From: Microcella indica
GTDB taxonomy: Bacteria > Actinomycetota > Actinomycetes > Actinomycetales > Microbacteriaceae
Reading direction: 5' to 3'
Assembly (NCBI RefSeq): GCF_013414345.1
Contig: NZ_CP058670.1
Location: forward strand, 1,798,001 to 1,862,000
Length of the DNA stretch: 64,000 nt
Below, piece by piece: positions 18,835 to 40,231 of the stretch. Position 1 is the first letter of the stretch. Every line of letters begins with the position of its first letter. A program made the position numbers and the translations under genes. The notes beneath the pieces were generated by a model, which saw only the letters and a list, made by a program, of their open reading frames with translations, had not been told where the DNA came from and ran no database searches.

Positions 18835-19794
18835 ATGGCTGAACCGTTCGAAGGTCGTGTCGCGGTCTACATCGACTTCGACAACATCGTGATCTCCCGC
18901 TACGACCAGGTGCACGGTCGCGGCGCATGGCGCAAAGACAACGTCTACCGGCTCCCGGCGGGCCTCACGGGCGCGACCGACGAGATCAAGGACAAGCTGC
19001 GGCACGCCGAGGTCGACATCAGCGCCATTCTCGACTTCGCGTCGAGCTTCGGCACGATCGTGCTCTCGCGCGCCTATGCGGACTGGTCGATCGGCGTCAA
19101 CGCCGCCTACCAGGGCCAGCTCATGGAGCGCGCCGTCGACCTCACGCAGCTCTTCCCCGCGACGCAGCAGATGAAGAACGGCGCCGACATCCGCCTCTCG
19201 GTCGACGTCGTCGAAGACCTCTTTCGCCTGCCCGACATCACGCACGTCGTCATCGCCGCGGGCGACAGCGACTACATCGCGCTCGCGCAGCGCTCCAAGC
19301 GCCTCGGCCGCTACGTGGTCGGTATCGGCGTGGCGGGCGGCACGAGCAAGAGCCTCAAGGCGGCGTGCAACGAGTTCGCCGACTACGACGGTCTGCCGGG
19401 CATCCGCCCCGCGTCGCGCATCGCCGCCGACCTCAGCAGCGCGGTCGAGGCGGAGGACGGCGCGAAGGATGCGGCCGAAGCCGCCGACACCGACGATTCT
19501 GCCGACACCAAGCCCCGCCGTCGCCGCGCGACGAAGCCCGCCACCACCTCAGCGCGCACGACGCAGGACGAGGCGACCGGTCTGCTCGTGCGCGCGCTGC
19601 GCCTCGCCCATGAGAAGGACGACAGCGACTGGCTGCACAACTCTGAGGTGAAGAAGCAGATGGTGCGCCTCGACCCCGCCTTCAACGAGAAGGTGCTCGG
19701 CTTCTCGTCGTTCAGCGCGTTCGTCAAGTCGCGCGAGGAGGTCGCCGAGCTCGACGAGAGCTCGCAGAACCGCCGAGTGCGCCTGCGCGACTAG
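18835..19794 (+). CDS. NYN-domain (PIN-like RNase fold) protein with C-terminal OST-HTH/LOTUS domain
   Basis: A 319-residue protein. The N-terminal ~165 residues are a NYN domain: VAVYIDFDNIVISRYDQ carries the first acidic cluster, and VVIAAGDSDYIALAQR the second. These acids bind metal in PIN-like nucleases. After an acidic/alanine linker with RRRRATK-like basic patch, residues ~245-319 form an OST-HTH domain (LLVRALRLAHEKDDSDWL). This pairing suggests RNA binding and processing. Its last 152 bp are duplicated perfectly at 30440-30591, making this gene the target site of the island downstream. The intact copy is the left one; the gene's own terminator now lies past the right copy. Confidence 0.88.
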   Translation: MAEPFEGRVAVYIDFDNIVISRYDQVHGRGAWRKDNVYRLPAGLTGATDEIKDKLRHAEVDISAILDFASSFGTIVLSRAYADWSIGVNAAYQGQLMERAVDLTQLFPATQQMKNGADIRLSVDVVEDLFRLPDITHVVIAAGDSDYIALAQRSKRLGRYVVGIGVAGGTSKSLKAACNEFADYDGLPGIRPASRIAADLSSAVEAEDGAKDAAEAADTDDSADTKPRRRRATKPATTSARTTQDEATGLLVRALRLAHEKDDSDWLHNSEVKKQMVRLDPAFNEKVLGFSSFSAFVKSREEVAELDESSQNRRVRLRD

Positions 19795-19796
19795 GG
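19645..19796 (+). repeat. Left 152-bp direct repeat bounding the island
   Basis: This is the last 150 bases of the NYN gene plus two bases after its TAG. Every base matches 30440-30591. Identity stops abruptly on both sides: CTCT before and CTCA after in this copy, against TACG before and GCGA after in the right copy. It behaves like attL of an integrated element, or like the product of a single crossover. Confidence 0.95.
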
Positions 19797-19797
19797 C

Positions 19798-19916
19798 TCA
19801 GGCATCGCACGCGACTCGAAAGCCCATGTGGGTTGTCGAGGAATCACGGCTCTGCCGCGTGCGGGCGGCGGGGCGGTATCGCAGGCAGTACTCCGGTGCG
19901 CACAGGTGCGAGCCTC
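19798..19916 (-). pseudogene. Formylglycine-generating enzyme gene, 3' fragment (split by IS)
   Basis: This piece encodes the C-terminal ~37 residues of the enzyme: SHLCAPEYCLRYRPAAR and then HMGFRVACDA with a TGA stop at 19798-19800. The Cys-x4-Cys pair (LCAPEYC) corresponds to the copper-binding catalytic cysteines of aerobic FGE. It is separated from the rest of the gene by the IS at 19917-21161. Its bases 19913-19916 (CCTC) are one copy of the target duplication. Without the N-terminal part it cannot be expressed as an enzyme. Confidence 0.9.
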
Positions 19917-19999
19917 TGGCCTGACCCCAGATTTTCGGTCCGTTCGTTATGAGAGTCGTCTTGTTGCCCCGCTCGTCGGGGAGGAAGACTGGATTCATC

Positions 20000-20284
20000 A
20001 TGACCACGAGAAGGCGCCGGCACACGCCGGAACAGATCGTTCGCAAGCTCGGCATCGCTGACCGTGTCCTGGCCGATGGCGGCGACGTTGCAGCTGCCTG
20101 CCGGGAGCTCGGCGTGTCGGAGCAGACCTACTACCGGTGGCGCAACCAATACGGCGGCCTGAAAGCAGAAGACGCGAAACGGCTCAAAGAGCTCGAGAAA
20201 CAGAACGCGACCTTGAAGCGACTGCTGGCTGAGGCGGAGCTGGAGAAGGCGGCGTTGAAGGAGCTGGCAGAGGGAAACTTTTAG
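20000..20284 (+). CDS. IS3-family transposase OrfA
   Basis: A 94-residue DNA-binding subunit. It begins MTTRRRRHTPEQIVRKL, with a helix-turn-helix (VAAACRELGVSEQTYYRWRN) and a leucine-zipper-like coiled coil (KELEKQNATLKRLLAEAELE) that drives multimerisation. It ends EGNF* at 20284. Just before the stop the bases G GGA AAC form a canonical slippery heptamer; a -1 shift there joins it to the OrfB frame to give the full transposase. Confidence 0.92.
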   Translation: MTTRRRRHTPEQIVRKLGIADRVLADGGDVAAACRELGVSEQTYYRWRNQYGGLKAEDAKRLKELEKQNATLKRLLAEAELEKAALKELAEGNF

Positions 20285-20316
20285 GCCCGGGCAGACGCCG
20301 CGCCGCGATCCGTCAC

Positions 20317-21120
20317 TTGCTGAGCGTGTTCGACATCAGTGAGCGGATGGCGTGTCGTCTGGTCGGGCTGAGCAGATCGGCCTGGCGCCGACCCTTGGTC
20401 TCGGAGACCTGCGCCGACCCAGACGCTGCATTGCGGACGTGGCTGCGAGCGTGGGCGAAGACTCATCCTCGGCGCGGCTACCGCAACGCCCACGCCGACG
20501 CCGTCGGTGAGGGCTGGGTGGTGAACGTCAAGAAGATCCAACGGCTCTGGCGTGAGGAAGGCCTGCGGGTGATCGTGCGTCGTCGCCGCAAACGCGTCGG
20601 CGCCTCCACCGCTGAACCTATCCCGGCTGACGCGCCTAACACGGTGTGGGCGGTGGATTTCCAGTTCGATGCCACCGAGAACGGTCGCAACCTGAAGATC
20701 GCCTCGATCATCGATGAGCACACCCGCGAATGCGTCGGCGGGCTCGTGGAGCGCTCGATCACCGCCGACCGGCTCGTGGACGAACTGGAGCGCATCGTCG
20801 CCCACCGTGGCCTGCCGACTGTGTTGCGGTGCGACAACGGGCCCGAGTTCGTCTCCCAAACCCTCGCCGACTGGGCGAACGACTCGGTGGGGATCTCCTA
20901 CATTCCGCCGGGCCAGCCGTGGCGCAACGGCTACGTGGAATCGTTCAACTCCCGCATTCGCGACGAGTGTTTGAACCTGAACAGTTTCTACAGCCTGCAC
21001 CATGCCCGGGTCGTGATCGGCGACTGGAAAAGGGACTACAACCATGGCCGTCGCCACTCCGCGCTCGGCTACCGGACCCCGGCGGCCTATGCTCGGGACT
21101 GCACGCATCGAAACCCGTGA
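20317..21120 (+). CDS. IS3-family transposase OrfB (DDE integrase domain)
   Basis: The catalytic part of the transposase, 267 residues from ATG 20317; as a frameshift product it would begin at about 20275. The DDE triad is in AVDFQFDATE (Asp), RCDNGPEFVS (Asp) and YVESFNSRIRDE (Glu). The C-terminal RRHSALGYRTPAAYA is typical of the rve domain. It moves the IS at 19917-21161. Stop at 21118-21120, about 40 bp from the right inverted repeat. Confidence 0.92.
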   Translation: MLSVFDISERMACRLVGLSRSAWRRPLVSETCADPDAALRTWLRAWAKTHPRRGYRNAHADAVGEGWVVNVKKIQRLWREEGLRVIVRRRRKRVGASTAEPIPADAPNTVWAVDFQFDATENGRNLKIASIIDEHTRECVGGLVERSITADRLVDELERIVAHRGLPTVLRCDNGPEFVSQTLADWANDSVGISYIPPGQPWRNGYVESFNSRIRDECLNLNSFYSLHHARVVIGDWKRDYNHGRRHSALGYRTPAAYARDCTHRNP

Positions 21121-21161
21121 CGACTCCCAAACGGCGTGGACCGAAACACGGGGTCAGGCCA

Positions 21162-21925
21162 CCTCCCTTGGCGACGCGCGAGCGGGCGGTAGCGTCGACC
21201 GACACCTGCGGCGAGCACTCGCACGTGGAGGCGTGGTGGGCATCCGTCCACGCGGTCGACGTCCACTCCCACACGTTGCCGGTCATGTCGACGAGCCCGA
21301 ACCCGTTGGCGGGAAACGTGCCCACGGGAGACGTTCCCCGCCACCCGAGCGCGCCGGTGTTGCGCCACGGGAAGTTTCCCTGCCACGTGTTCGCCTTCAG
21401 AGACCCGACGTGTTGCGGCTCCTCTCCCCACGCAAACGTCGCACCGTCGAGACCCCCGCGAGCAGCAAATTCCCACTCCTCCTCGGTCGGCAGTCGAGTG
21501 TTGGACCATGCGCAGTACGCATCGGCATCGTCCGCGGAAACCTGGACAACCGGATGGCTGCCTTTGCCCTCGACGTCAGAGCCCGGCCCGAAGGGACTCC
21601 GCCAGCACGCTCCAGGAACCCATCGCCACCATAGGCGCCAGTCCCTGAGGTCGACGGGGCCCGCCGGCGGCGTGAACACGAGGGAGCCAGGCGAGGTGTC
21701 CAGACCGGGAGCGTCAGGGAAATCTGCGGGATCAAGCGTCCTCTCCGCCGTCGTCACGTACCCGCTCGCATCGACGAACTCTGCGAACTGGGCATTCGTG
21801 ACCGGGGTTCGACCGATGCGGAAGCCCGCGACCTCGCGCTCCACGACTGGGCTCTCTTCGGGATAGAACGATGCCGATCCCATGCGGAACCATCCCCCCT
21901 CTATCGCGACCAGGTCGGCACTCAC
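21162..21925 (-). pseudogene. Formylglycine-generating enzyme gene, 5' fragment (split by IS)
   Basis: This encodes about 254 residues of a sulfatase-modifying (FGE-sulfatase) domain: VAIEGGWFRMGS at the start, EVAGFRIGRTPVTNAQFAEF, PVVQVSADDADAYCAWSN, RLPTEEEWEFAARGG and GLVDMTGNVWEWT, ending RVAKGG at the IS. FGE converts the Cys of CxPSR in sulfatases to formylglycine. Joining it to 19798-19912 restores 292 residues without a frame change. GTG 21925 overlaps the stop of the DUF202 gene upstream (GTGA). The break removes the catalytic cysteines. Confidence 0.9.
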
Positions 21926-22263
21926 CACGGGGCTCCCTGGCCGACGAGGACGAATCCGAGGGCGGCGACACCGAGAAGGAGCGTGACAAGGCTTACCGCC
22001 GCCACCGCGCGGCCGCTTGCGTACACGGCAGGAGCGCCGGAAACGAGCGCACGCGCGGCCGTTCGGTACCGGACGGACGTGGCGGCATACGCCGCGACGG
22101 TGAGCGCGAGTGCGGGCAGCCCGATCCACAGCGCAACGGCGGGGTCGAGAATCTCGCTGTACCTGATTGCGAGCGCCAGCCCAACGGCGAGCGTGAGACA
22201 TGTTCGCCGCCACGCGAGCAACGTGCGCTCCGCCTGAAGGCCCGTGTCGACGACGGCAGTCAC
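21922..22263 (-). CDS. DUF202 inner-membrane protein (YidG-like)
   Basis: A 113-residue protein with three membrane spans and the DUF202 hallmark LQAERTLLAWRRTCLTLAVG at the start of the first span. GTG 22263 overlaps the stop of the preceding DUF202 gene (GTGA), and its own stop overlaps the FGE start, so four genes are coupled. Function is unknown for the family. A pair of DUF202 genes next to a sulfatase and its maturase is also what I recall for E. coli yidG/yidH, which suggests a role in sulfatase maturation or transport of product. Confidence 0.85.
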   Translation of the reverse strand: MTAVVDTGLQAERTLLAWRRTCLTLAVGLALAIRYSEILDPAVALWIGLPALALTVAAYAATSVRYRTAARALVSGAPAVYASGRAVAAVSLVTLLLGVAALGFVLVGQGAPW

Positions 22264-22364
22264 GTGAGAACGCTCCCGATGATGATCGCGATGATGGCGA
22301 GGGAGGACCCGATCGCGATGACTCCCCCGATCGACATACCGGGCAACGGGCGCGACACGCGTAT
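22260..22364 (-). pseudogene. DUF202 (YidH-like) gene, 3' fragment
   Basis: It encodes the C-terminal ~34 residues: RVSRPLPGMSIGGVIAIG, then the last span ending IIIGSVLT and a TGA at 22260-22262. The fragment is cut off by the IS at 22365-23707. The bases TAT at 22362-22364 are one target-duplication copy. Together with 23708-23977 it rebuilds a 123-residue DUF202 protein. Confidence 0.88.
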
Positions 22365-22403
22365 TGAATCCCCCCGGCGTGTTCGGAGAGCGTATTGCTG
22401 GTG

Positions 22404-23261
22404 TCAGCCCGCTTGTTCGAGGGGCTCGGTCAGAGCATATTCGAGCTGCTCCAGTTCGATCGGGGTGAGGTCATCGATCGAACTGTGGATGCGTTCGGTG
22501 TTAAACCACTGCACCCAGTCCGCGGTCGCGGCCTCGACCTGATCGACGTTTCGCCAGGGCCCTTCGTGATGGATCAACTCGGTCTTATAGAGTCCGATCT
22601 GGGACTCCGCGAGGGAGTTGTCGTAGGCGTCGCCGACGGATCCAACCGAGGGGTCGATGCCTTCCTCGATCAGGCGGTCGGTGAAGGCAATGGACGTATA
22701 GACGCTGCCGGCATCGGTGTGATGCGTCAGTCCGGCGAAGTCGGCGACGCCCTCGCGGCGCCTGGTCCAGAACGCCATCTCCAGGCAGTCGAGCACCAGC
22801 GGCGTCGTCATTCTCGTCGCCGCCCGCCAGCCCAGGATGCGGCGGGAGTGAACATCGAACACGAACGCGACGTAAACCCATCCGGACCACGACCACACGT
22901 AGGTGAAGTCAGCGACCCAGAGTTGGTTCGTGCGGAACCTGGCGAAATGCCGATCGACAAGGTCGGCAGGTCTGGTCTCGCGCGGGTCAGCATCGACCGG
23001 ATTGGTGCGTTTCCCACGTCGCACGCCAGCGATGCCGAGCTCGCGCATGAGGCGCTCCACCGTGCAACGGGCAATGTCGTGGCCCTCGCGGCGCAGACGC
23101 AACCAGAGCTTCCGAGCGCCCAGCACGCGCCGTTGCCGCTGCCAGCAGCCCAGCACGATCGGCTTCCACCGCTCATCGGACACCTGCCGCGCTGAGGGTC
23201 GACGCTTGCGGGCGTCATAGTAGGTCGATGGGGCGATCTTCACCTCATGCTGGGTGAGCAC
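22404..23261 (-). CDS. IS3-family transposase OrfB
   Basis: The catalytic subunit, 285 residues from the in-frame GTG at 23261; the open frame extends further upstream and would be read as an OrfAB fusion after frameshifting. The HTH_21-like N-terminus STYYDARKRRPSARQVSD is followed by the DDE acids in LWVADFTYVWSW, HHTDAGSVYTSIAF and SLAESQIGLYKTEL. The end WFNTERIHSSIDDLTPIE is the standard C-terminus of the rve domain. It mobilises the element at 22365-23707. Confidence 0.92.
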   Translation of the reverse strand: MLTQHEVKIAPSTYYDARKRRPSARQVSDERWKPIVLGCWQRQRRVLGARKLWLRLRREGHDIARCTVERLMRELGIAGVRRGKRTNPVDADPRETRPADLVDRHFARFRTNQLWVADFTYVWSWSGWVYVAFVFDVHSRRILGWRAATRMTTPLVLDCLEMAFWTRRREGVADFAGLTHHTDAGSVYTSIAFTDRLIEEGIDPSVGSVGDAYDNSLAESQIGLYKTELIHHEGPWRNVDQVEAATADWVQWFNTERIHSSIDDLTPIELEQLEYALTEPLEQAG

Positions 23262-23332
23262 GGCGCAGATCGACTCGACACCCCATCGCAGGCCACCATC
23301 ATTGCGGTCCTTGTGGTCGGTGATGAACGCGA

Positions 23333-23656
23333 CTATCGCTTCGCTGGCCGGTCGAGTTCGGCCGCGAAGAAAGCCGAAGCCGCCTTCAATATCTCGTTCG
23401 CCCGCCGCAACTCGGCGTTCTCTCGTTTGAGCTTCTTGATCTCCGCCTGCGCCTCGGTGGTCACCCCCGGCCGTTGGCCGACATCGACCTGCTGCCGCCG
23501 AATCCAGGTTCGGACCGTTTCGGGCGAGCCGATGCCGAGCATGCCGGCGACCGCGGTGATCGCGGCGTGCTCGCTGGGATAGTCAGGCCGCACCTCGGCG
23601 ACCATGCGGACTGCGCGCTCACGAAGCTCGCGCGGATACTTGTTGGGTCGTGCCAT
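23333..23656 (-). CDS. IS3-family transposase OrfA
   Basis: A 107-residue DNA-binding subunit, MARPNKYPRELRERAVRMV with the helix-turn-helix AAITAVAGMLGIGSPETVRT, then a coiled coil (IKKLKRENAELRRANEILK) and the tail AELDRPAKR*. It lies just inside the right inverted repeat, with ATG at 23656. A frameshift into OrfB is expected for the group, but I could not identify a clear slippery site. Confidence 0.92.
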   Translation of the reverse strand: MARPNKYPRELRERAVRMVAEVRPDYPSEHAAITAVAGMLGIGSPETVRTWIRRQQVDVGQRPGVTTEAQAEIKKLKRENAELRRANEILKAASAFFAAELDRPAKR

Positions 23657-23707
23657 GAGACTGATCCTTCCAAGGAATCGAGTCTCCGAACACGCCGGGG
23701 GGATTCA

Positions 23708-23977
23708 TATGGCCTTCTCTGTAGAGGCCCACGATACCCAGGCGTGCACGCTGCCCACGAGCCCAAGGGCAACGAAAATGAGCGCCGCCGCCAGTCGCCA
23801 CCCGCCTTGGATCGGCGCGTCAAGTACTTCGAGTGCGACGCCCGCGAGCATGAGTGCCAGCGCGGTGCGCACCCAGGAGAGGAACGTGCGCTCGTTCGCG
23901 AGCGAAAAACGCGGATCGGGTTCACCGCCAACCGAGAACACTCGGCGGGGAAACCGCCTCGGCGTCGGCTCAGGCAA
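23708..23977 (-). pseudogene. DUF202 (YidH-like) gene, 5' fragment
   Basis: It encodes ~90 residues with the DUF202 motif ANERTFLSWVRTALALML and two of three membrane spans, reaching WASTEKAI at the IS. Joining to 22260-22361 keeps the frame. The candidate start is TTG 23977, overlapping the end of the sulfatase gene by 8 bp; a GTG at the Val of RRVFSVGG is an alternative. The insertion removes the last span, so function is probably lost. In the uninterrupted operon it stood between the sulfatase and the second DUF202 gene. Confidence 0.85.
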
Positions 23978-25430
23978 GGCGGGCGGGTACGGGCTGGCTC
24001 GGGTGCGGCTCGTCGCCCAGTTGACGCTGGGCGTTCCACATGGCTACTTCGAGGCGCTCGCGGATCTCGCGGTAGGCCGGGTCGTGGGCGACGTTGCGCA
24101 CCTCGTCGGGGTCCGTCTCCAGGTCGTACATCTCCCACTCGGGCGGGTAGCTGAACCTGCCGGTGCCGGGGATGTCGAGGCCGTCGTTGTAGAAGTAGAT
24201 GAGCTTGTACCGGTCGTCGCGGTAGCCGTAGTGGGCGGGCGCGCGGTGATTGATGTCGTCGTTCTCCCAGTACCGGTAGTACATGCCCTCGGCCGGCGGC
24301 AGGGCGTCGACGCCCGTCAGGTCGCCCCAGAAGCTTCTGCCCTGCATGCGCGGGTGGTGCTCAACGCCCGCCGCGTCGAGGATTGTCTGCGCGAAGTCGA
24401 CGTTCGTCACGATGCCGGAGTGCACTCCCCCGGGGGGCACCACACGGGGGTAGCTGAGGACGAGAGGCATGCGCAGCGCCTCCTCGTACATGAAGCGCTT
24501 GTCGAACCAGCCGTGCTCGCCGAGGAAGAAGCCCTGATCGCTTGTGTACATCATGAGCGTGTCCTCGAACTCGCCGCGCTCACGCAGCCAGTCGGTGAGG
24601 CGGCCGACGTTGTCGTCGATCGATGCGACGCACGCGAGGTAGTCCTCGAGATAGCGCTGGTACTTCCAGAGGCACTCCTCCTCGTAGCTGAGGCCCTCCG
24701 GTACGGGCACCTTGAGGTCCTCGGTCGACAGGTACTCGGCGATGCGCATGGTCGCGCGACGCGTCGCCGAGGAGCGCCCTTCGAGGTCGTCCCAGAACGT
24801 GGTCGGCACGGGGACCGGGTCGGTGTACATGCCCGCGTGCGCTTCGTCGGGTTCCCACGGCCGGTGGGGCGCCTTGTGGTAGACGAGCACGCACCAGGGG
24901 TCGTCGCCTTCGAGTCCCTCGACCCACGCGGTGGCGAGGTCGGTGATGATGTCGGTCGCGTAGCCTTCGACGATGCGCACGCCGTCCTTCGACAGGAACT
25001 GGGGGTCGTGGTACTCACCCTGGTCGATGAGCACATCCCAGTAGTCGAAGTTCTCGGGGTTGTGGCCGTCACCGTCACCCATGTGCCACTTGCCGACGAT
25101 CGCCGTGCGGTAGCCGGAATCGCGCAGCTGCGAGATGAAGGTGGGCTGGCTCGCGTCGATGTGGGTGAGCAGCGTCTTGACGCCGTTCACGTGCGAGTAC
25201 GTACCGGTGAGGATGGATGCTCGGCTCGGCGTGCACAGCGCATTGGTCGCGAAGCAGTGCTCGAAGCGCGTGCCCGCCTCGGCGATCTCGTCGATGCGGG
25301 GCGTGCGGTTGATGACCGAGCCGTAGGAGCTGATCGCGTGCGAGGCGTGATCGTCGGTGAGGATCATGACGATGTTGGGTCGTGGTGCGCTGCTGGGCAT
25401 TCCCGGGGTGCTTTCCTGTTCGGTGGTCAA
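23970..25430 (-). CDS. Cys-type sulfatase (formylglycine-dependent)
   Basis: A 486-residue sulfatase that hydrolyses sulfate esters. The activation motif is C66-T-P-S-R in LCTPSRASILTG, where the Cys must be oxidised to formylglycine by FGE. Metal ligands are in NIVMILTDDHA (Asp-Asp) and MYTSDQGFFLGEHG. HKAPHRPW is the conserved substrate-side histidine block. There is no signal peptide, so it acts in the cytoplasm on an imported substrate. TTG 25430 overlaps the previous stop (TTGA); ATG 25400 with an AGGAAAG site is an alternative start. The neighbouring FGE gene is broken, so the enzyme may be inactive unless another FGE exists. Confidence 0.92.
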   Translation of the reverse strand: MTTEQESTPGMPSSAPRPNIVMILTDDHASHAISSYGSVINRTPRIDEIAEAGTRFEHCFATNALCTPSRASILTGTYSHVNGVKTLLTHIDASQPTFISQLRDSGYRTAIVGKWHMGDGDGHNPENFDYWDVLIDQGEYHDPQFLSKDGVRIVEGYATDIITDLATAWVEGLEGDDPWCVLVYHKAPHRPWEPDEAHAGMYTDPVPVPTTFWDDLEGRSSATRRATMRIAEYLSTEDLKVPVPEGLSYEEECLWKYQRYLEDYLACVASIDDNVGRLTDWLRERGEFEDTLMMYTSDQGFFLGEHGWFDKRFMYEEALRMPLVLSYPRVVPPGGVHSGIVTNVDFAQTILDAAGVEHHPRMQGRSFWGDLTGVDALPPAEGMYYRYWENDDINHRAPAHYGYRDDRYKLIYFYNDGLDIPGTGRFSYPPEWEMYDLETDPDEVRNVAHDPAYREIRERLEVAMWNAQRQLGDEPHPSQPVPARLA

Positions 25431-26506
25431 CGGCCGTCATCCGGTCGCAGTGCGGAGAGATCGATGGGCTCCCACTGCCGGGACTCCACGGATGCGTAGG
25501 CGGCATCGATGACCGCGTTGTCGATGTATCCGTCAACGAGAGTCTGGCGCGGTTCGACGCCGGCCGTGAAGCATTCGACGAAGTGCGCCATCTCGGCGTG
25601 GTAGCCGTAGGTGAAGGGCTCTTCGGCGACTGGTGTCATCCACCCGGTGTCCTGACCGGCCTTCTCGAGAACGTAACCGGCCGAATTGCCTGCGAACGCT
25701 CGGACGCCCGTCGAGCCGGTCTCGTCGGTGCTGATCCAGCCGTGCGTGCCCTGGATCTCGTTGCGCACGTCGAGGCCGGCCTGGTGGTTCCAGCCCGCCT
25801 CGACCTGGGCGATGCGACCGTCGGCGAATCGCACGATCGCGATGCCGTGGTCCTCTGTCGTGACGTCGTCGCGGGTGAGTCGATCGGCCCACGCCATCAC
25901 TTCAACGGGGAGGGTGTCGTAGCCGATGAACCAGCGCCCGATCGCGACGCAGTGGCAGCCGAGGCCGCGCAGCGGCCCGCCGCCCATGCGCTCGGCATTC
26001 CGCGCGTGCTCGTGCGGGTGCCCGTGCGCCTCGCGCGCTCGCACGCTCGTCACGCGGCCGATGGCCCCGGCGTCGACGAGTTCCTTGGCCTTCACGAGCC
26101 CCGGGGCGAAGACCTCGGTCTCCGCGTATCCGTGCCACACCCCGGCAGACCGCACGGCGTCCAGGCACGCGACCGCCTCGCGAGAGTTTCGCCCGAGCGG
26201 TTTGGTGACCACCAGGGCCTTGCCCGCCGCGGCGATCTCCCGCACGGCCGCCACATGGAGATCGTGCGGGAGCGCCACGACGACGAGGTCGACGAGGTCG
26301 CCCTCGAGGAGGTCCCGCAGAGAAGGGACGACCGTCGGGATGCCGTAGCGCTCCGCGACGACCCGCCCCTTCTCCGCGTTCCGTGCCGCGAGAGCGCTGA
26401 CCTCATGACCGCGCACGTGGCGCAGCGCTCTCAGGTAGAAGTCGGCCACGAATCCCGCGCCGAGCACACCGATCCGCACCGGCGAGGGGATCCGTGCCGC
26501 GCTCAT
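25427..26506 (-). CDS. Gfo/Idh/MocA-family oxidoreductase
   Basis: A 359-residue NAD(P)-dependent dehydrogenase. The Rossmann motif is IGVLGAGFVADFYLRAL; the nicotinamide lysine is in the TKPLGRN block (family EKP, here TKP). The C-terminal half is the alpha/beta substrate domain, with GCHCVAIGRWFIG (family G-x-H-x2-D site varied) and NEIQGTHGWIST. Such enzymes oxidise sugars, inositols or related polyols. ATG 26506 overlaps the binding-protein stop (ATGA). Next to a sulfatase it probably acts on the desulfated polyol or sugar; that is inference. Confidence 0.88.
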   Translation of the reverse strand: MSAARIPSPVRIGVLGAGFVADFYLRALRHVRGHEVSALAARNAEKGRVVAERYGIPTVVPSLRDLLEGDLVDLVVVALPHDLHVAAVREIAAAGKALVVTKPLGRNSREAVACLDAVRSAGVWHGYAETEVFAPGLVKAKELVDAGAIGRVTSVRAREAHGHPHEHARNAERMGGGPLRGLGCHCVAIGRWFIGYDTLPVEVMAWADRLTRDDVTTEDHGIAIVRFADGRIAQVEAGWNHQAGLDVRNEIQGTHGWISTDETGSTGVRAFAGNSAGYVLEKAGQDTGWMTPVAEEPFTYGYHAEMAHFVECFTAGVEPRQTLVDGYIDNAVIDAAYASVESRQWEPIDLSALRPDDGR

Positions 26507-27537
26507 CGGTTCAGAGCCTCCATGGCATCGCCGAAGAGCTGCGTGTTGACGAACCGGTCGGGGTCGCCGGGCGCGTCGAGGCGGCCGAGCTCGAGGAAGA
26601 GGTCCTGCAGAGCGACGAAGCGCTCCACCGTCAGGCCCGACTCGTTGTCGGCGAGGATCTGCTCCGAGCTCCACCACTCGAGGTTGTCCGCCTGACCCTG
26701 CAAACCCTCGACGGGAGTGCCCGACTCGGCGGACGCCCACTCGACGACCTGCTCGGTGTTCTCGATGCGGTAGTCGTTGACCTGCGCCCACACCTCGAGG
26801 AAGCGGGAGACCGCCTCGGGGTTGTCGTCGACGGCCTGGTTCGACGCCACCCAGCCACCGACGAAGGCGGTCTCGGGGAAGTCGCGGTTGTTGGCGATGA
26901 CCTCGGCGTCTGGGACGTTCTCGAAGATCTGGTCGCTCAGGGGCGAGAAGATCGCAGCGACGTCGATCTGCCCGGCCACGAAGGCGGACACGACGTTCGG
27001 CGGGTCGAGCGGAACGCGCTCGATGTCGTCCATCGTGAGGCCCGCCGACTCGAGCGCGAGCGTCAGGATCATCTCTCCGGAGCCGCCGTCGGGTACACCG
27101 ACGCGCAGGCCCGCGAGGTCCTCGGGACTCGTCGCGCCCGATGCGGGCGACGCGATGAGCGAGTCGCCGTACGTGCTCTCGTTGGGGACGATGACCGTCG
27201 CCTGGCCGGACATCGGCAGCCACATGGCGCCGCCGCCGATGTAGCCGATGTCGAGGGACCCGGCCGCCATGGCCTGGATCTGGGTGGGGCCGTTGGTGAA
27301 CGGGATGAGCTCGACGTCGATGCCGGCCTCCTCCCACAGTCCGAGCTCGTTCGCCGTGACGATGACGCCTACGCCGTTGATGCTCGTGTCGATGTAGCCG
27401 ACCGTGAGCGAGACGCGCTCACGGTCGTCACCGTCGGTGCTAGGGGCTTCCTCGGCGGGCGCCGAGCACGCGGCGAGCGTGATCGCCGCGGCAACGGCGA
27501 GCGCGCTGGCCGCCGTCTGTCGTGTGGTGATTCTCAT
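26503..27537 (-). CDS. ABC transporter substrate-binding lipoprotein, SsuA/TauA-like
   Basis: A 344-residue lipoprotein: signal peptide with lipobox LAACS (Cys about residue 24), then a binding domain of the NMT1/SsuA type (LTVGYIDTSINGVGVIVTAN, GPTQIQAMAAGSLDIGYIGG, LAGLRVGVPDGGSGEMILTL). The family binds sulfonates, taurine, nitrate, thiamine precursors or aromatic compounds. The gene is the binding component of the importer whose ATPase and permease lie just upstream on the same strand. In a sulfatase operon the ligand is plausibly a small sulfate ester. Confidence 0.9.
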   Translation of the reverse strand: MRITTRQTAASALAVAAAITLAACSAPAEEAPSTDGDDRERVSLTVGYIDTSINGVGVIVTANELGLWEEAGIDVELIPFTNGPTQIQAMAAGSLDIGYIGGGAMWLPMSGQATVIVPNESTYGDSLIASPASGATSPEDLAGLRVGVPDGGSGEMILTLALESAGLTMDDIERVPLDPPNVVSAFVAGQIDVAAIFSPLSDQIFENVPDAEVIANNRDFPETAFVGGWVASNQAVDDNPEAVSRFLEVWAQVNDYRIENTEQVVEWASAESGTPVEGLQGQADNLEWWSSEQILADNESGLTVERFVALQDLFLELGRLDAPGDPDRFVNTQLFGDAMEALNR

Positions 27538-27568
27538 GGCTTCCTTGCCTTTCGATCTGGTGATGGGT

Positions 27569-28330
27569 TCAGTCGCGGTGGTGCACTCCGCGCCACACTC
27601 GGGCGCGAATGTCGGCGAACTCCGGCGACAGTCGGAGCTCCTCCGTTCGGGGGTAGGGCAGCGGGACGTCGACGATCTCGCTGATCCGACCGGGTCTGGG
27701 GCTCATCACGACGACACGACCGGCGAGGTACACGGCCTCGTCGACGTCGTGGGTGATGAAGACGATCGTGCGGCGGTCCTTCTGCCACGTCGCTAGCAGC
27801 TCGTCCTGCATCTGCACGCGCGTGAGGGCGTCGAGCGCGCCGAACGGCTCGTCCATGAGGAGTACAGAGGGGTTCACGGCGTACGCGCGCGCGATCGCGC
27901 AGCGTTGCTTCATCCCTCCCGAGAGCTCCTTGGGTAGGGCATTGGCGAAGTCGGCGATGCCGACGAGGTCGAGGTAGTGCAGCGCCTTCTCTCGGCGCTC
28001 CTTGCGACCGAGCCCCTGCAGGCGCAGGCCGAACTCGACGTTCTGGATCGCGGTGAGCCAGGGGAACAGGGCGTACTGCTGGAAGATCACGCCGCGGTCG
28101 GGGCTCGGCCCCTTGACGGGCGCCCCGTGCACGACGACATCGCCGCTCGTGGGCTCGAGGAGCCCGCCGATGAGGTTGAGCATGGTGCTCTTGCCGCAGC
28201 CGCTCGGCCCGACGAGGGTGATGAACTCGCCCTCGGCGACGTGGAGGCTGATGTTGTCGAGGCTGACGACCCTCCCTCGCGAGCTCGAGAAGACCTTCGT
28301 GACGGAGTCGACTTCGATCATGGCGCTCAT
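27569..28330 (-). CDS. ABC transporter ATP-binding protein, SsuB/TauB-like
   Basis: A 253-residue ATPase with Walker [19 protein letters not shown]-loop FQQYALFPW, signature [16 protein letters not shown], Walker [14 protein letters not shown] and H-loop [13 protein letters not shown]. The MKQR signature and [12 protein letters not shown] block match the nitrate/sulfonate/taurine class. Its ATG 28330 overlaps the permease stop (ATGA). It drives import of the ligand bound by the lipoprotein downstream. Confidence 0.92.
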
Positions 28331-29154
28331 GCGCGGACCTCCTGCCAGGCGGTGAGTCGGCGTTCGAGGAGCAGGAGCGCTCGGTCCATGACGAAGCCGA
28401 GGAGCCCGATCATGACGATGCCGACGACGATGCGGTCGGTCTGCAGGAACTGCGCCGCGCTCTGCATCATGCGCCCGAGCCCGGTCGGGGCCGCAATGAG
28501 CTCGGAGGCGACGAGGGTGGCCCAGGCCGAGCCGAGGGCGACGCGCATGCCGACGAAGATGAAGGGCGTCGAGGCGGGGACCACGACGCGGGCAAAGATC
28601 GTGAGATCCTTCGCGCCGAGCACGCGAGCCGCATTGATCATCGTGATGTCGACGTTCCGGACTCCCTGGAATGTCGCCAGTACGCACGCGAGGAACGCCG
28701 CGAGGAAGATGACGAAGATCTTCGCATCCTCGCCGATTCCGAGGATGACGATGACGAGCGGGATGAGGGCGAGCGGCGGTACGGTCCGGAAGAACTGCAC
28801 CCACGGCTCGACGAGTCCCCGGGCGAGCCAGTACCAACCCATGAGGAAGCCGGCGGGGATCGCGACGGCGACGCCCAGGCTGAAGCCGAGCAGCACGCGC
28901 GCGAGACTCGCCGAGGTGTTGGCCCACAGCGAGCCGTCGAGGATCGCGCTCCACCCTTCGATGACGACATCGAGCGGTGTCGGGATCAACGGGTTGCCGC
29001 CCCAGGCTGCCCCGGCGTACCAGAGCGCGATGCCGAGTACCAGCGTGAGCAGGTAGAGCCCGAGCAGGGAGCGCTCGCGTCCTTCGCGGCTCGGCCGTGA
29101 CTTGGCGGTCTTCGCGTCATCCGAGCCGATGAGCTCTTGCGACTGCACGGTCAT
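28327..29154 (-). CDS. ABC transporter permease, SsuC/TauC-like
   Basis: A 275-residue permease with six predicted spans. The EAA loop is [20 protein letters not shown] followed by [16 protein letters not shown], as in SsuC/TauC. The N-terminal ~30 residues are a charged cytoplasmic tail. ATG 29154 shares one base with the stop of a 15-codon leader frame upstream (TGATG). It is the first large gene of the transport and sulfatase operon, after the regulator gene. Confidence 0.92.
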
Positions 29155-29201
29155 CAGCTCGGTTCCTTCTTGTACTCGGCAGGAGGTGCTGTGGTCGTCA
29201 T
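29154..29201 (-). CDS. Putative 15-residue leader peptide
   Basis: ATG 29201 has an AAAAGGA site about 8 bases upstream and opens [15 protein letters not shown], ending TGA at 29154-29156. The stop overlaps the permease ATG by one base (TGATG), so ribosomes finishing this peptide could reinitiate on the permease. It is too short to be convincing by composition; the ribosome-binding site and coupling are the support. It contains a Pro-Pro pair but no run of a regulatory amino acid. Confidence 0.4.
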
Positions 29202-29228
29202 CGTTTGTGTCCTTTTCGACGGGGGTGG

Positions 29229-30398
29229 TCAGACATAGAAGTACCGCTCGAGTGCCGAGGTCGCTCCCCCGAGGACGCCGGCGTCCATGCCGAGGCTTGA
29301 GGGCTCGATGCGCACCGAGGGGCGCAGGAGGGGGAACACCGCGCGATTGGTCGTGGCGGTCACGCGCTCGAAGAACGCGTCGGGCACGGCAGCGAGTGCA
29401 CCTCCGAGCAGGATGAGCTCCGGGTTGAGCAGGTTGACGAAGGCGGCCAGGCCGTGGGAGAGCATCGCGACGATCCGGTCGATGGCCTCGCGGGCACTCT
29501 TGTCGGTCTCCGCGGCGTGCCACATCGCGGTGAGCGGGTTGCCGTCGGACTCGTCGAGGCCTAGGGCCGTCGCCTGCTCGCGGAGCGCGCGCTCCGAGAG
29601 CACCGTCTCGAGACAGCCGGTGCTGCCGCAGATGCACGATGCGCCGTCGGCGACACCTTGCAGGTGGCCGAGCTCGATGGCGCCGTGGACGCCGCCGGAG
29701 AAGGGCTGGCCGTGCACGACGAGGCCGGCTCCGAGGCCGGTGCGCAGGTAGACGAAGGCGACGCTCTCGCAGTCCTGAGCCACCCCGAAACGGTGCTCGG
29801 CGAGCGCCATCGAGCGCACGTTGTGGTCGACGCGCACGGGCAGCCCGATGAGCGGCTCCATGATGTCGGCGACGGGCACGTCGCGCCAGTCGAGGTTGAT
29901 GGGTAGGAGGATGCGCCGGCCGGCGGCGTCGACAGGCCCCGGTACGGCGATGCCCACGCCGATGACGAGCCTCGAATCGATCTGCGAGGCCTCGATGAGC
30001 GTGCTCACCGCCTCCGCCGTGGTGGTGATGACCTCGTGGACGGGCGTGGCGATGTCGTAGGCGAACGCGTGCTGGTCGTGGGTGCTGCCGAGCACATCGA
30101 CGAGGCCGAGCTGCACCGAGCCGATGCCGATCTGGACGCCGACGACGTAGTACGACTCGGCGTTGATCGAGACCTCGGTGGCGGGCCGGCCGAGCTTGCT
30201 CGGCGAGACGGGGTTGCCCTCGACGAGCACGTTCTCGTCGATGAGCTGGTTGACCGTGCGCGTGATCGTCGTCGGCGACACACCGGTGCGGCGCGCGATC
30301 TCGATGCGAGGGAGCGGCCCGGCGTCGCGCAGGAGGGCGAGGACATCGCCGCGCTGGGTGCGCGTCTCGTCGGTTCGTGCCGGGGCTTCATTGCTCAC
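29229..30398 (-). CDS. ROK-family transcriptional regulator
   Basis: A 389-residue NagC/XylR-type repressor. The winged helix is near residues 15-65 ([20 protein letters not shown]). The ROK domain follows with [14 protein letters not shown] and the zinc motif [10 protein letters not shown]. The phosphate-binding loop is degraded ([13 protein letters not shown] rather than DIGGT), so it should bind a sugar without phosphorylating it. GTG 30398 is chosen because a -35/-10 pair places transcription start on that base; the TTG at 30434 is the -35 box itself. It probably senses the sugar-like substrate or product of the operon. Confidence 0.88.
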
Positions 30399-30404
30399 AT
30401 GGAG

Positions 30405-30434
30405 AAAATAAATGACGAGAGGGCGCGTTGTCAA
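30405..30434 (-). promoter_or_regulatory. Promoter of the ROK gene, giving a leaderless transcript
   Basis: On the minus strand TTGACA (30434-30429), 18 bp, then TATTTT (30410-30405). The seventh base after the -10 is 30398, the G of the GTG start. Leaderless messages are common in actinobacteria. The promoter begins 6 bp inside the island's right repeat. Confidence 0.65.
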
Positions 30435-30439
30435 GTACG

Positions 30440-30589
30440 GAGGTGAAGAAGCAGATGGTGCGCCTCGACCCCGCCTTCAACGAGAAGGTGCTCGGCTTCT
30501 CGTCGTTCAGCGCGTTCGTCAAGTCGCGCGAGGAGGTCGCCGAGCTCGACGAGAGCTCGCAGAACCGCCGAGTGCGCCTGCGCGACTAG
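30440..30589 (+). pseudogene. 3' remnant of the NYN/OST-HTH gene
   Basis: Encodes only the last 49 residues of the NYN protein (EVKKQMVRLDPAFNEKVLGF to VRLRD) and its TAG at 30587-30589. There is no start codon or ribosome-binding site in this frame, and the bases upstream belong to the island's regulator promoter on the other strand. It is the displaced tail left by island insertion. Confidence 0.9.
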
Positions 30590-30591
30590 GG
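30440..30591 (+). repeat. Right 152-bp direct repeat bounding the island
   Basis: Identical over all 152 bases to 19645-19796. The displaced chromosomal sequence, including the NYN gene's terminator hairpin, starts directly after it. It behaves as attR or the second product of a crossover. Confidence 0.95.
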
Positions 30592-30605
30592 GCGACCGAG
30601 ACGAC

Positions 30606-30642
30606 AACGGGCCCCTCGCTACCCGAAAGCGAGGGACCCGTT
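30606..30642 (+). terminator. Terminator hairpin originally of the NYN gene
   Basis: AACGGGCCCCTCGCT (30606-30620) and AGCGAGGGACCCGTT (30628-30642) pair over 15 positions with one mismatch, around a 7-base loop. It lies 17 bp after the TAG of the duplicated gene tail, the position expected for the NYN gene before the island arrived. It may also serve the convergent gene at 30691. Confidence 0.75.
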
Positions 30643-30690
30643 GCGCACGTCCCGGACCAGGTCACGGGACGCTCGTGGAGAGCGACGCCG

Positions 30691-31419
30691 CTACGGGCGG
30701 CCGCCCTTCCCGTTGCCCGGCCCCCCGGGGCCCGAGGACTGCTGGACGTCGTCGTCCCCCGACGACTCGTCATCGCCGTCCTCGGCGTCACCAGCGCCCT
30801 CACGAGCGCTGCGGTTCTCGTCGCGCAGCTCGCGCGCCTGCTCGGAGACCTTCTGACCGAACTCGGCGCCGACCTTGTCGGGGTCCTGCGCGTTCTCCGA
30901 CACCCAGGAGCCGAACTCGTCGCTGCCGACCGGCAGATCCTCGGCGGGCTCCTCCGTCGTGCCGTCCTCCGGCGCCTCGTCCTCGAGCGGCGCCTCCTCC
31001 TCGAGCGGCGCCTCGTCGACGAACTCCTCCACGGTCTCGACGGTCGACACGACCGAGTCGAACGACTCCTGAAGCGGCCCGGGCAGTGCGCCGGCGGCGC
31101 CAGCAGCGCTCACTCCGACCACTCCGAGGGCGAGAGCCCCTGTTCCTGTCGCGAGCTTCGCCGCGATCCCCCATCCTGCGAGTGCTGTCAGCATCCTCTT
31201 GATTCCCCCTGGTGATGTGTCCTCCGCAGAAACCCCCACGGCCTGCGGTGCTGCGAGTCGCTCCCGCAGCGCAGCGGTTGGCTGCGGTGCGGGAGCGTGG
31301 GCCACGATGCGCATCTCCTCGACGGCGCGCGCGAGCGCGTCGAGGTCGGGCCGGCCCGGAAGGCTCTGCCCGGCCAGCACTCGCTGCGCCTCGTCGTGGG
31401 TGATCCGTCGTCGTGTCAT
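30691..31419 (-). CDS. Acidic single-span membrane protein, probable partner of the ECF sigma factor
   Basis: A 242-residue protein. An N-terminal cytoplasmic region (MTRRRITHDEAQRVLAGQSL) is followed by one hydrophobic segment (LATGTGALALGVVGVSAAG) and an external half very rich in Glu and Asp, with repeats like EAPLEEEAPLEDEAPED, ending GNGKGGRP. ATG 31419 sits 1 bp after the sigma factor's stop, so the two are coupled. The arrangement (sigma gene then single-span membrane gene) is that of an anti-sigma factor, but no zinc-binding anti-sigma motif is visible. Function is inferred from position. Confidence 0.65.
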   Translation of the reverse strand: MTRRRITHDEAQRVLAGQSLPGRPDLDALARAVEEMRIVAHAPAPQPTAALRERLAAPQAVGVSAEDTSPGGIKRMLTALAGWGIAAKLATGTGALALGVVGVSAAGAAGALPGPLQESFDSVVSTVETVEEFVDEAPLEEEAPLEDEAPEDGTTEEPAEDLPVGSDEFGSWVSENAQDPDKVGAEFGQKVSEQARELRDENRSAREGAGDAEDGDDESSGDDDVQQSSGPGGPGNGKGGRP

Positions 31420-31420
31420 C

Positions 31421-32017
31421 TCACTGCTCGCTATCGTCTGGGCCCGCCGCAGGGGTACGGGTCTCGCCGAGATTCTTCGCGAGCCTCGCAAGCGCGCGGC
31501 GTTGCAGCGCCTTCACGGCGCCCGTTCGCTTGCCGAGCACTCCCGCCACCTGCTCGACGGTGAGGTCGGCGACGATGCGCAGCACCATGACGTCGCGCTG
31601 ATCGGCGGGCAGCCCGTCGAGGAGGCGCAGCGCCGCCGCGTCGCCCAGGCGGGCGGTCGCCTCGTCCTCCGCACTGGATGCCCGGCGCGGGTCGCTCGCC
31701 ACGCTCAGCTGCTCGGTCTCGCCTCGGCGAGACCGCATCCTCAGCTCGTCGACGAGGCGACGGTAGGCGACGGAGAAGACAAAGGAGCGAAACGCGGCGG
31801 CGTCTCCACGGAAGGCGCCGAGCCGGTCGAAGACCGTCAGGAAGACCTCGCTCGTGAGGTCGTCGGGCTCGCGCGAGCCGCGAGCCGTGAGGAACGCGGC
31901 GACAGCGGGCGCGTGCCCCTCCCACAGCTCGCGGCAGGCCCAGGGCGCTCCGGCCTGCGCCGCGGCGAGCACAGCGTCGAAACTCGAGTCGGCCGGAGTC
32001 TGGGGCACGCGCGTCAC
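31421..32017 (-). CDS. ECF-type RNA polymerase sigma factor
   Basis: A 198-residue extracytoplasmic-function sigma factor. Region 2 shows DDLTSEVFLTVFDRLGAF and FRSFVFSVAYRRLVDELR, which binds the -10 element. Region 4 has LPADQRDVMVLRIVADLT and the helix-turn-helix VEQVAGVLGKRTGAVKALQ, which reads the -35. The start is GTG 32017. It is followed by a coupled membrane protein gene likely to regulate it. The stimulus and target promoters cannot be derived here. Confidence 0.9.
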   Translation of the reverse strand: MTRVPQTPADSSFDAVLAAAQAGAPWACRELWEGHAPAVAAFLTARGSREPDDLTSEVFLTVFDRLGAFRGDAAAFRSFVFSVAYRRLVDELRMRSRRGETEQLSVASDPRRASSAEDEATARLGDAAALRLLDGLPADQRDVMVLRIVADLTVEQVAGVLGKRTGAVKALQRRALARLAKNLGETRTPAAGPDDSEQ

Positions 32018-37951: not shown

Positions 37952-38143
37952 GCTCGTAAGGTCGGCACGATCAGGCGCGCGAAGGGTCTCGAGTTCAAAC
38001 AGGTGCTGCTTGGGTGCGTGGCCAGGGAGTCGCTCGCACCCGCTGTCGAGGGGCTCGACGATGGGGTCCGCGAGCGCCGCGAGATCGAGCGGCGAAGTTG
38101 AACGTCGGCATGGCCCGCGCCCGCGATGGGTTGTGGGTTGGGC
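37949..38143 (+). pseudogene. Remnant A of a UvrD/Rep-like helicase (motifs V-VI)
   Basis: About 195 bp that align base for base with 40007-40204 at roughly 85% identity by eye. The translation recalls VGTIRRAKGLEF (motif V) and the MARARDGLWVG end of motif VI. A one-base deletion and a TGA after GAGCGGCGAAG destroy the frame. Nothing of the ATPase N-terminal domain is present. It is a decayed helicase 3' end, not a gene. Same strand as the second remnant 1.9 kb downstream. Confidence 0.75.
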
Positions 38144-39610: not shown

Positions 39611-40231
39611 GTGGGGAGCTATTCGAGAGTGGGGACGGGAATCTTGATCGCCACTCGCGGAGTCGTCATGTCGACGAACTACCGCAACACCCGCGAGATC
39701 GCGTCGTTCGCTTCTTCGATTGTCGAGGGCGACGAGTTCGTCGACATCGAGGGCGGCCCCGACCGGGCGGATGCCGCACTCGCCGTTCCCCGCACCGGCC
39801 CCTCCCCCGTGCTGTCGTCGTTCTCGTCGCACGCGGCGCACGATGCCGCGCTCGTTGCCCACGTGCGCTCGCTCGTCGCGTCGGGTGTCGATGCTGGCGA
39901 CGTCGGCGTGCTGACGGCCACGAATCGGGATGCCCAGGCTCTCGCCACCGCGCTGCGCGCAGGCGGGTTCGGCGTGGTGGAGCTGAAGAGCTACTCGGGG
40001 TCGACGGCGCCGCTGGTCAAGGTCGGCACGATCAAGCGCGCGAAGGGTCTCGAATTCAAGCACGTGCTGCTCGGGCGCGTGGCGGGAGAGTTGCTCGCGC
40101 CCGCGGTCGACGGGCCCGACGACGGGGCCCGCGAGCGCCGCGAGATCGAGCGGCGGGAGTTGTACGTCGGCATGACCCGTGCCCGCGATGGGTTGTGGGT
40201 TGGGTCGAGATCACCTGACAGGAGATCATGA
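39611..40231 (+). pseudogene. Remnant B: C-terminal part of a UvrD/Rep-like helicase
   Basis: Open for ~206 codons, but only the second half of a superfamily 1 helicase. Motif IV-like MSTNYRNTREIASFA, motif V VGTIKRAKGLEFKHVLLG and motif VI RRELYVGMTRARDGLWVG are intact. Walker A, motifs Ia to III and the N-terminal half are missing. The GTG at 39611 is probably not a true start. It overlaps by frame but not by sequence with the Mrr-like gene start 5 bp after its stop. It could still be expressed as a fragment. Confidence 0.75.

Follow-up and report, generated by a model that had tools for sequence, protein, structure and literature searches.

Organization of the NYN Locus

The window, a stretch of 64,000 nucleotides from Microcella indica (Microbacteriaceae; contig NZ_CP058670.1), carries a complete gene for a NYN/OST-HTH (LOTUS) protein, followed by an insert whose two borders are formed by copies of the 3′ end of that gene (Table 1). 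The insert is covered by nine minus-strand operon genes and two IS3-family elements, with the largest gap being 101 bp. Its size without the IS elements is about 8.05 kb. The cargo is a horizontally acquired operon encoding a ROK regulator, an SsuA-type ABC transporter, a Gfo/Idh protein, a sulfatase, two DUF202 proteins and an FGE-domain maturase.

Table 1. Features of the NYN locus and of the insert (window positions).
Feature	Position	Strand	Basis or remark
NYN/OST-HTH (LOTUS) gene, 319 aa, complete; final 150 bp within the left repeat copy	18835..19794	+	
Left copy of the 152-bp direct repeat (NYN 3′ end)	19645..19796	+	sequence identity
3′ fragment of the FGE-domain gene, convergent with NYN	19798..19916	-	matches beside the N-terminal piece in other genomes
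IS3-family element A (orfA, orfB), 1245 bp, target duplication CCTC (4 bp)	19917..21161	+	
5′ part of the FGE-domain gene (PF03781)	21162..21921	-	Pfam
DUF202 protein, second of two	21922..22263	-	
IS3-family element B, 1343 bp, 25-bp inverted ends, target duplication TAT (3 bp)	22365..23707	-	
DUF202 protein, first of two	23705..23977	-	Pfam match covers all 68 domain positions
Sulfatase (PF00884 with SGSH C-terminal domain)	23970..25430	-	domain search
Gfo/Idh/MocA oxidoreductase	25427..26557	-	open frame as searched; true start internal
SsuA-family ABC substrate-binding protein	26503..27537	-	TIGR01728, 165.8 bits, cut-off 163.5
ABC transporter ATPase	27569..28351	-	
ABC transporter permease	28327..29175	-	
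ROK-family regulator, first gene of the operon	29229..30398	-	
Likely operon promoter	30399..30439	-	CTTGAC and TTATTTTCTC boxes
Right copy of the 152-bp repeat, a bare NYN tail	30440..30591	+	sequence identity
Hairpin 3′ of the right copy (ancestral NYN end)	30596..30655	+	
Putative anti-sigma gene and sigma-70-family factor gene, ancestral right neighbours of NYN	30691..32017	-	

The insert ends 4 bp upstream of the CTTGAC box. The CTTGAC and TTATTTTCTC boxes 5′ of the ROK gene are common to the window and to three other Microbacteriaceae loci (L164, L165 and L166), and are not shared by a fourth (L169). At the opposite end, the stop codon of the FGE-domain gene lies 3 bp from that of NYN. 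The FGE assignment combines the Pfam domain with the neighbouring sulfatase, no NCBIfam model scoring above its cut-off. This gene is split by IS element A. The genome holds another complete FGE-domain gene elsewhere, so the sulfatase may still be matured. IS element B sits at the end of the first DUF202 gene, the C-terminus of which may be cut short because its stop codon falls within the end of the element.

The base composition of the insert gives no clear foreign signature, since its genes range from 66 to 71% GC against 69.4% for the window. Third-position GC is 0.84–0.92 from the ROK to the sulfatase gene, compared with 0.74–0.79 in the two DUF202 genes and the FGE gene. In L164–L166 the sulfatase is not followed by genes of either kind. 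Taken together, these two features suggest that the operon may have been composed from two sources (19798–23977 and 23970–30398) before its arrival.

IS3-Family Elements within the Operon

Six identical full-length copies of each IS element are present in the genome, which suggests recent transposition. Neither element made the 152-bp repeat, because each is flanked by its own target duplication of 3–4 bp. A composite transposon was ruled out on the same grounds, the two elements being, in addition, different from each other and located within the operon.

The 152-bp Direct Repeat

The original prediction described perfect 152-bp copies with abrupt ends, and both properties were confirmed. The copies are identical at 152 of 152 bp, the identity extends by 0 bases at either edge, and the 200 bp past the edges show 22.5% and 25.5% identity, which is the random level. 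The pair is the longest exact direct repeat of the window, with a runner-up of 27 bp. When the window was simulated 20 times with an order-3 Markov model, the longest such repeat of each copy measured 16–20 bp, so that the length observed is far above chance. Genome-wide, the repeat is present in full twice, with five partial matches of only 21–60 bp besides. Outside the insert, window positions 38068–38142 and 40129–40204 hold further exact direct repeats, 27 and 24 bp long and separated by about 2.06 kb.

An assembly artefact that repeated 152 bp on both sides of the operon would produce the same picture and is extremely unlikely. The genome is a single contig of 2.585 Mb, rated 100% complete, and the right flank agrees with the ancestral synteny of relatives.

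The Probable Ancestral Right Side of the NYN Gene

The left copy was predicted to complete the NYN gene and the right copy to be a bare tail followed by a hairpin. The complete reading frame and the hairpin about 15 nt past the right copy bear this out, while the ancestral status of the right side rests on synteny. The gene order was compared in 19 same-genus NYN loci (L009–L027, about 1.5 kb on each side). In seven of them NYN is followed, 218–421 bp on, by anti-sigma-like and sigma genes; the former has no Pfam or NCBIfam match and is named from its position beside the sigma gene. The remaining 12 have other neighbours or none recognised, and L018 and L027 show an anti-sigma-like match without a sigma match in the stretch covered. 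No match to the operon proteins was found in any of the 19 loci over this distance.

By eye, a hairpin is evident within 110 nt past the NYN stop codon in six of the seven syntenic loci, L012 being the one that lacks it. Folding energy by itself does not discriminate between the two downstream sequences, with −34.3 kcal/mol for the 110 nt past the left copy and −35.8 for those past the right copy. Since seven of the 19 loci keep the anti-sigma-like and sigma genes behind NYN, the right copy, the hairpin and the two genes beyond most likely represent the ancestral right side of NYN. The uninterrupted arrangement in these relatives also supports the proposal that the region is an insertion.

The NYN 3′ End as a Proposed Attachment Site

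In integrase-driven genomic islands, the 3′ end of a gene stands at both borders and the gene on the left is rebuilt. The border geometry of the insert is alike, the flanking direct repeats matching the 3′ end of the target gene. The original prediction, insertion of an element into the 3′ end of a gene that is rebuilt in the process, thus holds for the geometry and is not supported for the machinery, as no recombinase besides the transposases is encoded in the insert. Five matches to tyrosine recombinases (PF00589, Phage_integrase) are present in the genome, none of them inside the insert and the nearest about 57 kb from it. The insert has no room for a further recombinase, because so little sequence is left between the operon genes and the IS elements.

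Repeated use of the site is another expectation for an integrative element. Matches to the C-terminal 64 aa of NYN were found in 192 of the 349 family genomes, and two such matches occur in seven genomes, the M. indica genome and six others. In those six, the second match always lies in an open frame of at least 327 aa. Among the matches listed for the 349 genomes, which reach down to about E 4e-15, the bare tail of the window was thus the only one recognised. Use of the same site in other genomes is, within these matches, not borne out. Among viral contigs, seven stretches fit the pattern of the NYN tail and none was confirmed. Moreover, in four operon-bearing genomes (G242, G286, G129 and G377) the NYN tail gives a single match and no NYN match lies beside the cargo in the 19–20 kb read. 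These loci come close to one of the outcomes that the original prediction had named as speaking against itself, an uninterrupted NYN locus with the island genes elsewhere as native chromosome.

It could be argued that the insert is a degenerate genomic island, in which the NYN 3′ end served a tyrosine or serine integrase as attachment site and att-like repeats of 152 bp were left behind, the integrase gene having been lost or acting from elsewhere. The gene completed by the left copy and the bare tail on the right are the geometry of such islands, and the integrase matches outside the insert would fit an action from elsewhere. Such an origin is considered unlikely, given the distance of the nearest of these matches, the lack of both an integrase and the space for one in the insert, the lack of a second recognised NYN-tail case in the 349 family genomes and the lack of confirmed NYN-tail relatives in viral contigs. 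It is very unlikely that the NYN/OST-HTH 3′ end serves as the attachment site of an operon-sized element without a recombinase that is moved in trans. Unlike integrase-driven islands, the insert has no integrase, no recurrence was seen at NYN, and its cargo is a metabolic operon that is found elsewhere without these borders. A new, site-specific integrative element with NYN as its attachment site is not supported. A literature search returned no paper on integrase-free islands with circular intermediates or on ICE attachment sites in coding genes, and, for NYN/OST-HTH proteins, the titles and the openings of abstracts of the papers listed do not mention NYN as an attachment site.

Distribution of the Operon and Possible Donors

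Relatives of the sulfatase were detected, with the M. indica genome counted in each case, in 2 of 26 genus genomes (E ≤ 1e-30), 31 of 349 family genomes (E ≤ 1e-60) and 20 of 396 order genomes (E ≤ 1e-200), these three sets being overlapping. The best match across them is 75% identical. In the family, 20 of the 35 places outside the M. indica genome were read over 13–20 kb, and the order ROK, permease, ATPase, substrate-binding protein, Gfo and sulfatase is kept in four of these 20 regions (L164, L165, L166 and L169). No NYN match lies in the 20 regions, nor in 54 sulfatase loci, which are mostly short. Within the stretches thus covered, a donor with the operon beside NYN was not found among the genus, family and order genomes, nor was one found in the viral contigs.

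A plasmid or phage carrier was also considered and rejected, as the sulfatase matches among 842 plasmid and 31 phage records are all below 60% identity. No sulfatase match was confirmed in viral contigs.

Proposed Single-Crossover Integration of a Circular Donor

Overall, the locus is a real insertion for which the original geometry was right, and its content is an ordinary operon, acquired horizontally, whose border is unusual yet explicable. The leading proposal, which has about an even chance of being correct, is that a one-off recombination placed the sulfatase operon (about 8.0 kb) 3′ of NYN, through a re-circularised donor and a single crossover, with no dedicated integrase. A fragment from a very close strain would have brought the operon adjoining at least 152 bp of the NYN tail. 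This fragment would then have been trimmed and its ends joined to form a circle, which would have integrated by a single RecA-dependent crossover within the common 152 bp, leaving one copy on each side. The two resident IS3-family elements would have jumped into the operon afterwards.

The insert is bounded by two copies of one stretch that is long enough for homologous recombination, and the length and abrupt ends of the repeat support this route. Furthermore, the insert spans the operon from its likely promoter to its last stop codon with only small gaps, and the operon order recurs in the four Microbacteriaceae loci that lack a NYN match. The perfect identity of the copies is compatible with any recent event. 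Against the single crossover stand the failure to find a donor with the operon beside NYN, the best sulfatase match being 75% identical, and the need for an earlier event placing the operon there. No Ku match was found in the genome with a model that matches one of 14 control genomes, B. subtilis. Ku-based end joining was rejected on this basis, and the end-joining step that would make the circle gains no help from it.

A different account invokes a break staggered by 152 nt, or else a stalled fork, that captured the operon, with the fill-in duplicating 152 bp of host DNA and no homology in the donor. This would explain the perfect identity from host DNA alone and requires no donor with the operon beside NYN, consistent with none having been found. 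Staggers of 152 nt are, however, unusually long, and classical end joining is unlikely because no Ku was found. This account is judged rather improbable.

A precedent for single crossovers of incomplete circles comes from E. coli. The study of Amarir-Bouhram et al. 2011 (PMC3240628) describes plasmids linearised after conjugation with homology at one end, for which a duplication-diagnostic PCR product was obtained in 56 of 60 clones, and duplications of 109–950 bp were found in 14 sequenced clones. It was proposed by these authors that a circle missing part of the homology integrates through a single crossover, the circle most likely arising by linearisation, partial degradation and re-circularisation (PMC3240628). 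The two cases are alike in that direct duplications of part of a host gene (109–950 vs. 152 bp) flank foreign DNA and that a recombinase on the insert is unnecessary. However, the E. coli experiments used a laboratory plasmid of known homology, whereas the donor of the M. indica insert and its homology are inferred.

Homology-facilitated illegitimate recombination has been proposed for arrays of orphan T6SS immunity genes in Vibrio (PMC5361080). There, a foreign module follows a conserved host stretch and the old host sequence is displaced downstream, as in the window. Nevertheless, this type of recombination generally entails a deletion of similar size, according to PMC3240628, while the window shows a duplication of 152 bp and no apparent ancestral loss.

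In this locus, nature provides a clean example of the capture of an entire metabolic operon, from its likely promoter to its last stop codon, in which the end of the target is duplicated and a dedicated recombinase is absent. It also shows that repeats of a gene 3′ end are not, by themselves, proof of an integrase element. If insert-less strains or a donor were found, the locus could document the single-crossover route outside the laboratory.

Comparison with Microcella pacifica

The nearest relative in the comparison is Microcella pacifica KN1116, whose NYN protein is 98% identical. The original prediction of an empty site in relatives was realised in the uninterrupted arrangement of the seven same-genus loci and failed in M. 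pacifica. This species does not provide an exact empty site, because an isochorismatase gene adjoins NYN at 3 bp and the anti-sigma-like and sigma genes were not found in the 12.9 kb read.

The NYN tail (window 19645–19794 against L038) shows six differences from M. pacifica, all in the last 22 bp, and the preceding 128 bp are identical in both window copies and M. pacifica. The two window copies have accumulated no differences, even though the right one is a non-functional fragment, which suggests that the event considerably postdates the split from M. pacifica. Gene conversion could be another source of the identity of the copies.

At the M. pacifica junction (L038 6955–6990), the stop codons of NYN and isochorismatase are 3 bp apart, and the end of the isochorismatase gene matches the FGE 3′ end of the window at 10 of 11 bases. 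The M. pacifica isochorismatase has two extra terminal residues that are absent in the window, L039 and L045.

An older history can be built on this junction, with the insertion shared by the ancestor of M. pacifica, deleted there later with the anti-sigma-like and sigma genes, and the repeats kept identical by gene conversion. The convergent stop codon within the 11-bp stretch and the two extra residues would agree with it. Nonetheless, such a history is highly improbable: the match is short and was noticed post hoc, it can come from a common stop codon plus a 6-bp change at the isochorismatase end, and the M. pacifica genome (G001) has no sulfatase match. The junction itself is possibly a deletion scar, or else a product of chance.
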